64,000 nt of DNA from contig NC_136008.1 of NCBI RefSeq assembly GCF_048128805.1, positions 17,153,572 through 17,217,571 on the forward strand. The letters run 5' to 3'. The translations under genes and the position numbers were made by a program. Numbering within the stretch: the stretch's first letter is position 1; the number at the start of each line of letters is the position of its first letter. A model generated the notes under the pieces. That model had not been told where the DNA came from, ran no database searches, and saw only the letters and a program-made list of their open reading frames with translations. Source of the stretch: Centroberyx gerrardi (lineage: Eukaryota > Chordata > Actinopteri > Beryciformes > Berycidae). Below are positions 5,984-54,291 of this stretch, in pieces.

Positions 5984-8900
5984 ATGTCCTCAGAATACAC
6001 CATTGATATCCAGCTGACAGAGTTGGGATTTCCTGACATCCTGCAGCCATCAGAGACACATGTGAGACAGACACCGTGTGTTTTGGCATCATCCGACGCC
6101 TCACTCTCACACAGCCATTCTACAGAAAGAAAAGTGATCAGAGGCAACCAGTCAGTTGTTGAAGATCCTGCTGCCGTAACACAGAATGTGCACATTGAAC
6201 AAACCACAGAGATTTCTGAGACATCACAGACATTACCATGTACACCTCTACAACCGACTCCAAGTGTACAAGATAAACAAGCTGCCAGTAGGGGTCCTGT
6301 TGATGCTGGCGCTGTACTTCCTGTATTGCCTAAGCCCTCGATAAGTTGTCCAACCACTGAACTAGGAACCACTGAAACTCCACTGCTGGCAACGGAACAG
6401 AAAATAGGGGATGCTGAGTCTGAAAATGGACAGAAAGATCTTGATGATGGACAAGAAGCGAAGGGAAATTCAACAGAAGCGAAGCAGGGTGTGGAGAATG
6501 AGTCAGATGACAGTGAGGTGTCGGTGACAGATGAGGAAGAGGAGGAAGACGATGAGGAAGAAGAAGGGCTAGACAATGGTATGGTTGATTTCGTTTTGAA
6601 TCTCTTAAGCATACATGTGTCTGGTGCTGTGTCCCTCTGGATTTGGTAATGGGCAACAAATAGGACCCAGACTATGTGGCGCCTCTGGATTTGTCTAAAA
6701 AGTCTACCTCAACTGAGTCTGAGTTTGTTGACAAAGTCTTTCTGAGCTACTAATATCCTGTGGCAATTTAATTATACCTAATATTTGCACTTTCAATTCT
6801 TTTCCTGGCTGGTGCCTGGTGAGTGATATGTCTTTTTTGATGATTAAGCTATTATCACGCTTGAGATTTCCCTTTCCTATTTCCCACAGAGTCTAGTAAT
6901 TCAGGGGATTACCGCTGCAGCTTCTGTGAACTTCAACTTCCCTCGAACCTCAAGCTGCAAGAGCATATGAACCTGCACACTGGAGCACGCCCGTACCGTT
7001 GTGCTGAATGTGGCAAACGCTTCTGCCAGATTGACAACTACCGTGCCCACCTGCGCACGCATGCCCAGGCCAGACTGGATCCTCTCCTCTGCCGCATCTG
7101 TCTGACCGTCTTTAAGTCACAGGAAGGCTTGAGGGACCACCTGTCAACAACTCACTTTGAGAAGAAGTTTTACGAGTGTGACCTGTGCAAGCGTGTATTC
7201 ACTGACCTGAAAGTGTGTGAATGGCATGTGGAGTGGCACAAGCGCACCCTGGGCAACTTTGTATGCGAGTCATGTGGCCGCATTTTCTCCCTTCAAAAGT
7301 CCCTCACACGCCACCGGAATAAAAAGTGCCATCGCAGCTACAATTGCACAGACTGTACAAAGAGCTTTACCAGGAAGAACGCTCTCCTGAAACACAGCTT
7401 CTCCCATCTAGGTTTGTTGCCTTACACCTGCATACGATGCCGCAGCCACTTCCGCCTGGCAAAACTGTACCGCCAACACAAGTGTGAACCTCAGCGTATT
7501 CACTGTGTGGCCTGTCTGAGAGTGTTTCTCAGCCAGGCGGACTTCCAGAAGCACAAAAAGGATACAGGCTGCTGGGGCCACCAGGGGCCCAAAGGGGATG
7601 AGATCCGCTGTTTGGAATGTGGCCAAAGTTTTGCCACGGCAGAAGAGCTGAAGAAGCATGCTGGGGCTCACCAGAAGGTGCTGACCTGCGCGGAGTGTGG
7701 AAAGGGGTTCCGGTCAGCCTTGCTGTTAATGTCCCACATGGGCGGCCATGCTGGCCAGACGCCCTGCCTGTGTCAGAGGTGTGGACTGGGCTTTCCCCAC
7801 CAGCAGAGCTATGATAGCCACCTCAACAACTGTGGACATACACCCCATCCTTCGGTGAGTTTTCCGCATTATGGTGACATGAGATTTTTAAGAACTACCT
7901 ACATTGATAATTTCTAGTTTCTTTGGCAAATTCTGTCGCACTTCTGGGTTTTGTAACTTGTGTGATTGAGATATTTGTTTTCCCATTTTAGAGTGCTCTT
8001 AAGAAACGTACGGCCACAAAGAACTCTCCTCCGCCTGTGAAACGCATGCCCCAGCCAAGCACAAACCTTTCATTGCCAACAAAAAACCCTACAAATACAT
8101 CAAACACAACAGTCACTATCCCTGCTGATGTTTCAAACATCCCTGCTGCACCAGTGGAGGAATCTGGTAGTCCAAAGAATGTGACAGGGGGAGCGTCCAA
8201 CGGGTCCGGTCCAGCAGAAGCGGTGTGGCAGCTAACGCTCGACAAACGGCCGCCTCCTGGGGTTAAACTTGTCTTGTTTGTTCCTGTGAGCTCATCTCTA
8301 GCCAATGGCCTGGCATTCCCATCTACTGTCCCTCAGGCTCCACCAGTTCCAGATATCCAGGTCCAGCCTCATGTGGCTCTCCCACCTGCTCCAAGAGGTG
8401 AACTGAGATTGCACAAGTCTAGCTCGCACCTTGGTCCGAGTTCTGTTCCAGGAACGCGGCTACGTTTAGATGTCCCTCTGGATTTGGTAATGGGCAACAA
8501 ACAGGACCCAGACTATGTGGCGCCTCTGGATTTGTCTAAAAAGTCTACCTCAACTGTGTCTGCTCTGACCATTTGTCCTCTTCCTGTTAAAATTGAGCCA
8601 GAAGACCCAGAGTTCTCAGAAGAGGCTCGTAGTATTCAAGGAGAAGCATTCCAAAGGGTTGATAGTAAAGAGACTATCTTAAAGGTTAAGAGAGAACAAT
8701 GGGTAACAAGTTTGGAGAATACAGCAGAGAGAGATAAATATACTACAGTGAAGCGGTTGAAATTAGATCCCATGGATCTCTCACCTCTTAATTTTAGTAC
8801 AACCTCTTCTGGCCTAGTAATGGATATTAAGAAAGAGCCTCAGACTCCTGGTTCTGACTTTAACTTGTTGCCATCCAAATCCTGCCAGCTGACAGCATGG

Positions 8901-8990
8901 AGGCCGGAGAGAGAAATGAAGATGGAGGATGATGGGCCAAGCCCTTCCTGTCCTGATGCTCATGTTGATCCTCTTAGTTTGTCCAACTAA
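5984..8990 (+). CDS. Zinc-finger protein with 11 mixed C2H2/C2HC fingers, PxDLS motifs and SUMO-consensus sites
   Basis: Coding exons are 5984-6578, 6890-7854 and 7992-8990: 2,559 nt, 852 residues. The junctions aatg/gtatgg, cccacag/agtc, tcg/gtgagt and ttttag/agt all keep frame. The start sits in gtcaccATG, a good context. Residues 1-198 are polar and end in an Asp/Glu run (about 183-196). Residues about 202-515 carry 11 fingers, of which four (5th, 7th, 8th and 11th) end in Cys instead of the last His. The C-terminal part holds PLDLV (682), PLDLS (698) and PMDLS (780), which fit the PxDLS motif recognised by CtBP corepressors. It also holds SUMO-type VKIE, VKRE, IKKE and MKME. I infer a nuclear sequence-specific repressor; I do not recognise the orthologue. 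A nearly exact copy of the PLDLS-coding stretch lies in intron 1. Confidence 0.9.
6630..6721 (+). repeat. Intronic copy of an exon 3 coding segment of the same gene
   Basis: These 92 bases match 8471-8562 with two substitutions (90/92), in the same orientation, 1,841 bp upstream and inside intron 1. In the exon's reading frame one substitution turns CAG into TAG, so the copy could not extend the protein if read that way. It encodes the PLDLV...PLDLS stretch. It has no flanking acceptor/donor pair. Confidence 0.9.
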
Positions 8991-10980: not shown

Positions 10981-13158
10981 ATGGACAAAGACAAGTGCGC
11001 TGACGCTGTAAGTAGGCGAGTCCTTTATTTGATTTAAAATTATTTGAATCAATCGATTTTTCTTGGGGTCTCTACTCTAAAATCTGTAGCATGTAGCATT
11101 TAAGTCAAAATGTCCCACAGCCACCAACTGCCACAAGCAACGCTGTGGTTACTGATATAGCGAATGGCAGCTATTCTATTGATTCCCTATAACTTATTAT
11201 TGCAGCATGGTCAGTGTTCCTGGATGGAGATGCATCAGTTCATTGGTGACCTTATCACATCTGGAAACGCCTCCAGTCAGTTACTGAAGGAGCAGCCAGA
11301 TGTCCTTCACGTTGCATGGGGGGTGGCTGGAGGTGATGCTCTGGGGCTCAAAGGTGCCCCACTCGAACCCTTACCCCACCCCAGACCAGCCCTGGACAAG
11401 CCAGATCCAGGACACGGCCGGCAGATTCTGGAGAGGAGGGGAGAGGTCAGAGACAGAAGGGAAGGTGAGAGTGCATGATAAATATTCAAAATAAAGGATG
11501 CTGGCAGTGATTTCACTCATTGCTTCATTTTACTGCAAACAAATCTTAGCTTTCAATTCATTGCAACCTATTTTTCTTTACGCATAGATATGCATCATGC
11601 CTGCACCTGCCCCGGCTGCCCTTATTCCACTTCTCCTTCCTTTGAGACTTTAAAACCCAGACAGTCTTCATCCTCGCAGCCACGCTTAGACACAGTATGC
11701 AACCCCAAAGACCTTAGCAGCACTGCTCCCATGAGCCTGAGCCTGTGCTTACCAGGAGAGGACACCGCTGAACCCAGCAGCACCACCACATCTGACTTAG
11801 AGCCCAGGCTGTCCAGGCAGCCCCAGAGGCAGGACAAAGAGAGGGGGGGTCAGAGCCCTAGCCCAGACCCCAACTCTGACACCCCTCCCTCCAGAGGCTC
11901 CCCAGGCTCCTTGTCCCACCTCCCCATGTTTCCCTGTCTGTGCTGCCACCGCGGCCTCCAGACCTGCGCCCAGATACTGAGTCAGCAGGAAGGAGCAGAC
12001 TCCCCCTTTTCTCACACCCACGCCCATCATCATTTCCATCATCACCACTGCCCTCTAACCTCTTGTTTACCCTGCCCTCAGCTCGCCCACTCCCACCCCC
12101 ACTCCACGCAGCTCCCTGGCCCTTTTCCCTGCTTGTCTTGCCAGCATTCCTTTCCTACCTGTGCTCAGGTGTGCCACCACCAGCATGGCCAAGCACACAC
12201 TCAGCAACAAGAGGAGAGGGGCAGGAGCGCCGTGGCCTTGTCGTCGCACCACCCATGTATGCATTGCTCTGCCTCCTTTTCCCGGCCCTCCCAGCTGCTG
12301 CAGCACCAGCGCTCTGAGCACGCCCACAAACCAGCCGGCTTCCTCTGTACAGAGTGCGGCAGGGCCTTCAACTCGCACAGCAACCTCCGCATCCACCTCA
12401 ATGTGCACACTGGTGCCCGGCCCTACACCTGCTCTGACTGTGGGAAGAGTTTTAGCCAATCGGGGGCTCTGAAGATCCACAGGCGGATCCACACGGGTGA
12501 AAGGCCCTATTCCTGTGCCTTCTGCGGCAGGGGGTTCCCCCATTTGGCGGGGGTCCGGGCCCACCAGAGGATCCACACAGGAGAGAAGCCCTATCGCTGC
12601 AGCCAGTGTGGGAAAAGTTTTACCCAGTCGGGGGCTCTGAAGATCCACACCCGCATCCACACAGGAGAGAGGCCTTTTATCTGTAGCCTCTGTGGGAAAG
12701 GCTTCTCCAACCGCTCCGGGATCCGCTTCCACCACCGCACAGTCCACGGACTGGCCCCCGAACATGGTGGAGGAGCCGGGCGTCCCAGGACTGGTCCTCC
12801 CGCCAGCATTGGGTTAAATACACGCGGTAGCCCAGAGAGCGACTCCCATGCTGCCCTCAGTTCCATTGTTCCACCTGCTTCGAGTGCAGCTCATCATGGA
12901 TCTGCTTTCCTCGGCAGACCAGGTAGCAAGTCCCAGTCTGAGAGAGCAAACCCAGGCAGTCACAGGGACGGGCTGCTGTATGAGTGTGAGGACTGCGGCC
13001 TGCGCTTTAAGGACGCCCCCTCCAGGAACAGACACCAGCTCCTGGAACACTACTCCTCTGAAGGGGAAGAGGGGGACATGCAAGAGGAGGGACACAGGAA
13101 AAGGTTAACTGCAAAGGGGAGGGTGCAGGATAATAGTGGAGTTGGAAAAGTGATTTAA
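10981..13158 (+). CDS. C2H2 zinc-finger protein with His-rich N-terminal region
   Basis: Proposed coding exons are 10981-11007, 11206-11464 and 11588-13158: 1,857 nt, 618 residues. The first exon encodes only MDKDKCADA before a strong gct/gtaagt donor. It joins in frame to the attattgcag/cat acceptor, then gaag/gtgaga joins to gcatag/at. An alternative start at ATG 11164 would read through that acceptor and seems less likely. Residues 96-320 are rich in His, Ser and Pro, with degenerate CxxC units (CPGC, CLCC, CLSC) that may be decayed fingers. Then come one isolated finger (PCMHC...), five tandem classical fingers joined by TGERP-type linkers, a low-complexity spacer, and a last finger (YECEDC...) near the C-terminus. 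The third and fifth of the six clustered fingers share the same recognition-helix residues (QSGALKIH). A nuclear DNA-binding regulator is likely. I do not recognise the orthologue. Confidence 0.85.
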
Positions 13159-50187: not shown

Positions 50188-50272
50188 TAGCTCCTAACCA
50201 GACTAAAAAGTATGCCTGAGCCCCTGTCAGACTCCCAGTGAAGCAATTTTTCTGACCTACAAAACACTTCAC

Positions 50273-50306
<34 letters not shown>
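50188..50306. repeat. Interspersed repeat copy A with CA-rich tail
   Basis: The run 'gctcctaaccagactaaaa', then 'gtatgcctgagcccc', 'agtgaagcaattttt', 'tgacctacaaaac' and a CA tail is shared with 54152-54291. The pair is roughly 80% identical by eye over about 80 bases. A short retroposon-like or MITE fragment is the likely source. Confidence 0.75.
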
Positions 50307-50308
<2 letters not shown>

Positions 50309-51398
50309 CACACACACACTGACACATACACACACACACTGGCTTGTCAGCTCCCCAGTCATGTATCCTGGTCAAGGTGAAGGACTGTGAAGGGGCAGCT
50401 GAAACTGGGGAAATGCAGACACATGGAGATGAGAGGAGGGATCGGGGGGGAAGAAAACACACCACCTCACATGTCCTGCCGACAGCAGCCCTGTTATTGT
50501 CAGTCTCAAGCTGACAGACCAGAATCACTGGGATCCTGGGGAGCGGCCGCTTGGATAAAATGTTTTTAGGAAATGAAAAACACTGAGCTGACTCTTACCT
50601 CTGGCTTTAAAGAGACAAAACATGATACTCATGAAAATGAAGTTGTCCTGGCAACGATCGCGTGAATATTACTTGAACCGTATTTCATCAGTCACTGCCC
50701 AGCAAACGTGGAGATAACGCACTCTGGTGCCGCGAGGTAAATCAGCACATGCACACGTATACGTGTACAAGCACAGAATGTAATTTCAGGAAAATTACAG
50801 CTTTTGAATTCCTCCGGTCGTATCCATTATCAAGTCAGTGTGTATGGCACAGGTTCACAGTGGAGCCACCCGGCACCAGCAAACCCAGACAAAGGCAGTC
50901 GCACAGGCAGATCATTAGTGGTTATATCAACACAAAGGCTCATACCACACCGTGTTATGTTATTATCTCAGCAACCACTGTACCCACCGTGTTTTGGCCT
51001 CTAGCAGCAGGTAGGGTGGAGTCTTTCCTGTCACAGGTTCGCTCTTGTTTTCCGAGCCACCTCTTTTAGGGCCGGGATCAGCCGCCTGCGTGGAGAAATA
51101 CTGCCCTTCCTCCGTGCTCTTTGATCAAATCGTCCACGCCATGAGAAGTAACTGCTCTCTCGAGGTAGAGCTGGAAATGGTCACATGATCAGGATCAGCT
51201 TTTCTCTGCCGCCTGGATATAGATTCATATTAGCAGAGCAGGGGCTGGGATTCAGAGAGGGCTTCAACAGCAGATTGGACAAGTGACCTTTTGGCTTGTC
51301 ATGCTACCGGGGCTAAGGGGTTCAACTCTGCTGGGGATATCGGATACGTAACGACACCGAGGCACGTCAGCACACAACGGCACATGCTGTACACAGAC

Positions 51399-54151: not shown

Positions 54152-54236
54152 GCTCCTCCTAGCCAGACTAAAATGTATGCCTGAGCCCATCTAAGATTCC
54201 CAATGAAGCAATTTGGTTGACCTACAAACAGTCCCA

Positions 54237-54291
<55 letters not shown>
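54152..54291. repeat. Interspersed repeat copy B with long (CA)n tail
   Basis: The run 'gctcctcctagccagacta', then 'tgtatgcctgagccca', 'aatgaagcaatttgg', 'tgacctacaaac' and (CA)25 at 54241-54290 matches copy A at 50188-50306 in order and orientation. Confidence 0.75.

Follow-up and report, generated by a model that had tools for sequence, protein, structure and literature searches.

The copy and its likely donor within the zinc-finger gene

Intron 1 of a predicted C2H2 zinc-finger gene of Centroberyx gerrardi holds a 92-base copy of an internal piece of exon 3 of the same gene. We consider it likely that this patch is a neutral germline templated insertion, produced by an MMBIR-like template switch or by end joining of the polymerase-theta type; its germline origin, the exon-to-intron direction, the pathway, the recency and the neutrality are what we infer from the two sequences. 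The gene lies in a stretch of 64 kb (the window), where its model was predicted from GT/AG sites and an uninterrupted frame, with no RNA. The features that matter here are as follows.

5984 (ATG) to 6578, + strand: exon 1, coding part, acidic end (predicted)
6579 to 6889, + strand: intron 1, 311 bases, of which the copy makes up 30% (predicted)
6616 to 6623, + strand: TGTGTCTG in the left intron flank, the same word as the right edge of the donor; perhaps a second microhomology, perhaps what is left of a duplicated target, or else a chance match
6630 to 6721, + strand: copy in the intron, 92 bases long, with a core of 84 bases (6630-6713) that differs from the donor at one position
6714 to 6721, + strand: right edge of the copy, TGAGTCTG, identical at 7 of 8 bases to donor TGTGTCTG at 8555-8562; possible imperfect microhomology at the return junction
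6890 to 7854, + strand: exon 2, C2H2 zinc-finger array (predicted)
7992 to 8990, + strand: exon 3, C-terminal part with PLDLV, PLDLS, PMDLS, PLNFS, PLSLS and the stop codon (predicted)
8471 to 8562, + strand: likely donor within exon 3, encoding VPLDLVMGNKQDPDYVAPLDLSKKSTSTVS

When 6630-6721 was compared directly with 8471-8562, 90 of the 92 bases were identical on the same strand with a start-to-start distance of 1841 bases, and the identity ended sharply on both sides where the flanks are unrelated, all of which bears out the match, the unlike flanks, the shared orientation and the 1.84-kb spacing reported in the initial annotation. The random expectation for such a pair in 64 kb of matched composition is about 1.5e-41. 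The two differences are C at 8502, which is T at 6661, and T at 8557, which is A at 6716; the first of these turns CAG into TAG in the donor frame, again as had been reported. Because the frame of exon 3 is open and the copy has TAG in place of CAG, exon 3 is the likely source, and the sequences thus suggest a direction from exon to intron. The divergence is 1/84 or 1.2% (interval 0.03-6.5%) if only the core is counted and 2/92 or 2.2% (0.3-7.6%) over the full length, so that in sequence terms the copy is probably fairly young.

The predicted product has 852 amino acids in three coding exons and no internal stop. Its exon 3 carries PxDLS-like motifs, which are putative CtBP-binding sites. The donor is internal to this exon, 479 bases past its start and 428 ahead of its end, and the copy sits, in predicted coordinates, 51 bases past the start of intron 1 and 168 ahead of exon 2. 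It had been proposed that precisely the part encoding the motifs was copied. PLDLV and PLDLS do lie inside the copied piece, but PMDLS, PLNFS and PLSLS lie further along exon 3 and outside it, so the choice of this piece has no special meaning. It had also been thought unusual that the fragment was copied without its introns; this does not hold, since the donor lies within one exon and contains no intron boundary that could have been lost, and the absence of introns therefore carries no information.

When the copy with its flanks was searched against the genome (779 Mb), two places were found, 6630-6721 and 8471-8562, and the exon 3 protein likewise found itself and the copy, with no third place at E up to 10 and no paralogue useful for comparison. 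The genome search scores best candidates only and its counts are lower bounds; within them, the copy is neither a mobile repeat nor a member of a widespread family. The donor is intact, and the intronic piece is an extra copy of a unique donor, which is a feature of class 2 templated sequence insertions. A 3.8-kb query for other fragments of the gene found its own place alone, a weak result as this search also missed the known internal pair.

The finger array gave 44 matches at E up to 1e-10 among the 124 of 1001 candidates that were scored, namely itself and 43 others at 30-40% identity, and these paralogues are of no use as a guide to the intron. Against solved structures the fingers match 159 distinct sequences, with C2H2 proteins among the 60 shown, and for exon 3 there was no match up to E 10. 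In the collections of prokaryote and viral sequence, 135 stretches fit the pattern of the exon 3 protein with none confirmed as a relative, and for the finger array there was no pattern match. Two more C2H2 zinc-finger reading frames flank the gene, at 1952-2839 upstream, called from Pfam, and at 11482-13158 downstream, called from the look of its translation and an 84-base repeat offset; together the three may form a small zinc-finger cluster.

The edges of the copy

At the left edge the intron reads GGTGCTG followed by TGTCCC, and the donor reads TTTAGA followed by TGTCCC. At the right edge the intron reads TGAGTCTG followed by AGTTTG and the donor reads TGTGTCTG followed by CTCTGA; here the mismatch at 6716 is followed by five matches. 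This arrangement fits copying through the edge with a later change, and it equally fits rejoining at a one-mismatch microhomology that was already present in the intron. The second difference may thus be a junction rather than a mutation, in which case the core counts 84 bases and differs at one of them. On the 84-base form, the intron before insertion would have read GGTGCTG and then TGAGTCTGAGTTTG, with the return at a mismatched 7-of-8 homology.

Apart from the match at the 1841 offset, the only word of 8-10 bases common to the flanks (6580-6640 and 6700-6760) and the donor region (8371-8662) is the donor-edge word at 6616-6623, six bases ahead of the copy. This word occurred in 158 of 100000 first-order Markov intron 30-mers and one of its three registers in 283 of 100000, but since the test was made post hoc and some 8-mer of the 292-base donor region turned up in 416 of 5000 Markov 30-mers, its presence near the left edge is an after-the-fact hint only. 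The longest exact word common to both flanks is five bases, GTCTG (6619 and 6717), which belongs to the 7-of-8 word pair 6616-6623 and 6714-6721 and does not abut the left edge; insertions of class 2 should lack a target-site duplication of 5 bp or more at their junctions. That pair could be read as a decayed target duplication, and on such a form the intron before insertion would have read ACATGTGTCTG and then AGTTTG, with a 6-base filler. No poly(A) was seen after the copy and no TTTT/A at its edges.

Duplications in the neighbourhood

Self-comparison of a 264-kb block round the window, with 5,000 N in it, gave 20 matches, nine of which were at least 40 bases long at at least 90% identity. 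These nine pairs are the 92-base pair, four clustered direct copies of 171-2551 bases, a 56-base direct copy, two near-tandem copies and one inverted copy; from nine pairs in 264 kb no rate for coding patches follows. Below the 90% cut lies a same-strand pair of 136 bases, 50191-50326 and 54156-54290, which is 86% identical, 3965 bases apart and partly a CA repeat. It too was found at two places in the genome (a lower bound), so local copies are not unique to the zinc-finger gene, and it may be an earlier local copy of broadly the same type.

The longest of the direct copies is a segment of 2551 bases present as two identical copies about 0.4 kb apart, at window coordinates -21123 to -18573 and -18156 to -15606, whose spacer of 419 bases (-18575 to -18157) is repeated identically about 5 kb further on, at -13120 to -12702. 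This layout is like that of a duplication whose middle part stayed single, and either a complex rearrangement of very recent date or a false duplication in the assembly could account for it. Further upstream, between -48064 and -43043, two more direct pairs occur, one of 789 bases at 99.7% identity and one of 171 bases at 98.2%. Part of a trypsin domain (Pfam PF00089) is encoded in one member of the 171-base pair, pointing to tandem trypsin genes. None of these upstream duplications is evidently linked to the patch. Downstream, exactly 5000 N occupy window coordinates 67001-72000, which would be a fixed-size gap in the assembly or else masked sequence.

Origin of the copy

Of the three causes offered in the initial annotation, namely replication template switching, a short retro-copied patch and assembly error, the first fits best with the single intact donor, the strand, the size and the short imperfect homology. 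In such an event a stalled fork or a double-strand break would arise in intron 1, the free 3' end would find a few matching bases 1.84 kb away, in this gene's own exon 3, and anneal there, about 84-92 bases would be copied, and the end would then come off and rejoin the intron at the imperfect microhomology, leaving a neutral patch on the same strand that would later gain one or two changes. What speaks against a local templated insertion is that a direct copy with its donor at 1.84 kb departs from the patterns of the closest published searches. A stable hairpin round the donor was rejected as a cause: 8440-8600 folded as DNA gave a z of 0.82, and 161 of 200 shuffles folded at least as well. 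There was no Rfam match in the 64-kb window at the gathering threshold.

The template could also have been RNA, if reverse transcription of a pre-mRNA or mRNA fragment from this gene supplied the DNA that mended a break in intron 1, as in class 2 templated sequence insertions. The donor is wholly exonic and the copy is in the sense strand of the gene, and, according to the available part of PMC5110952, experimental inserts are enriched for transcribed sequence and become fewer with reverse-transcriptase inhibitors. However, the copy has no exon-exon junction, no poly(A), no TTTT/A target and no clear target-site duplication, and its donor and target are parts of one gene with 1.84 kb between them, in contrast to the distant sources in the experiments covered by that part of the review. 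The sequence by itself cannot separate an RNA from a DNA template because no intron boundary is crossed; on balance we regard the RNA route as unlikely. The narrower proposition that the nascent transcript of the gene itself templated germline repair of a break in its own intron is very unlikely, and if true, repair templated by a transcript would have left a legible mark in the gene that produced it. With regard to the retro-copied patch named above, its LINE-mediated form (class 1) is not supported, since poly(A), TTTT/A and a clear target-site duplication are missing, the 7-of-8 word pair being the sole possible trace, while an RNA-templated patch that needs no such marks has the low probability just given.

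If about 1.84 kb running from intron 1 into exon 3 had been duplicated in tandem and the first copy then deleted except for the 92 bases, the result would show the order and strand that are seen, with 8562-6722 as the duplication junction and 6629-8471 as the deletion junction, and larger near-identical direct duplications do occur in the 264-kb neighbourhood. We nevertheless hold this course to be quite unlikely, as two successive events would be required, passing through an intermediate whose exon order is broken, and comparing the 64 kb with itself revealed no further trace of a duplicated block of the gene. That the intronic copy is absent from the animal and is an artefact of assembly is least credible of all. 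The identical 2.5-kb copies, 15.6-21.1 kb ahead of the first base of the window, could be a sign that the region is imperfectly assembled, but the flanks of the patch are unique, the two copies differ at two positions, the window contains no N and it lies 17.16 Mb into a 32.3-Mb contig. A miscopied 92-base piece is not the usual error of an assembler. The suggestion of assembly error thus appears improbable, as judged from sequence evidence.

Comparison with known templated insertions

The comparisons made here are with the available portions of the cited papers. The local templated insertion that we favor belongs with a class known in people under the names of templated sequence insertions and MMBIR-linked templated insertions. 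At induced breaks the templated insertions of Onozawa and Aplan span 73-414 bp, a range that takes in the length of the present copy (PMC5110952). The polymorphisms assigned to class 2 in that paper are like the present case in being short patches with the donor kept and no poly(A), and their junction microhomology has a possible counterpart at the right edge here, but their donors are distant whereas here the donor is in the same gene at 1.84 kb. Insertions linked to MMBIR (MMB-TI; PMC8421209) share the local template and probably the germline occurrence, with a possible parallel in junction microhomology, and a microhomology with one mismatch is what that paper calls "microhomeology" at the insertion junctions, germline ones included; in the portion available, however, MMBSearch seeks inverted copies within 100 bp and forward copying appears in complex events, unlike the direct copy from 1.84 kb seen here. 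Polymerase theta also copies another template with minimal or mismatched homology (PMC5068794; for mismatch tolerance, PMC13015775), and its inserts come mostly from a few bases off the junction with some from distant sites, but they are described near the break and with deletions (PMC5068794), in contrast to the 84-92 bases from 1.84 kb away seen here.

Introns are enriched for, and coding sequence is depleted of, the short-range template switches recorded in great apes, which accords with selection (PMC7954356). The patch is like these in being local and intronic but unlike them in being a direct copy, since theirs are reverse-complement copies whose median length is 12 bases and which do not exceed 128. 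Because a direct copy at 1.84 kb lies outside the patterns described in the available text of PMC8421209 and PMC7954356, the patch fits these systems in kind and not in every feature. Exonize, which finds intragenic exon duplications, likewise deals with coding sequence that recurs in an intron of its own gene, but it needs the exon to align with the intron past a coverage cutoff, and here 92 of the 999 bases of exon 3 were copied (PMC12343006). Among titles and abstract starts on same-gene and intragenic short copies, a body of literature in which subscription journals were mostly outside the scope, there was no report of this locus and no named class of exon-to-intron patches. The patch is well described by a known mutational process, that of templated insertion.

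Consequences for the gene

Exon 1 and the copy are in different frames, and a reading frame carried on through intron 1 ends at 6647, within the copied piece. Retention of intron 1 would therefore not add CtBP-like motifs, and a functional alternative exon that continues these motifs is not supported in view of the TAG in the donor frame, the other frame relative to exon 1 and the stop at 6647. The patch shows no sign of function and is probably neutral. As to the proposal that recombination between the two copies could delete most of the finger array, such an event would remove 6630-8470 (1841 bases) and with it the whole of exon 2 and its finger array, so that "most" understates the loss.

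Alone, the patch changes nothing demonstrable about the gene. As a clean trace of local template switching from one donor, and probably a young one, it is useful as an example from a non-human animal, and such same-gene patches, if counted across related species, could measure how frequently coding sequence is copied into introns.
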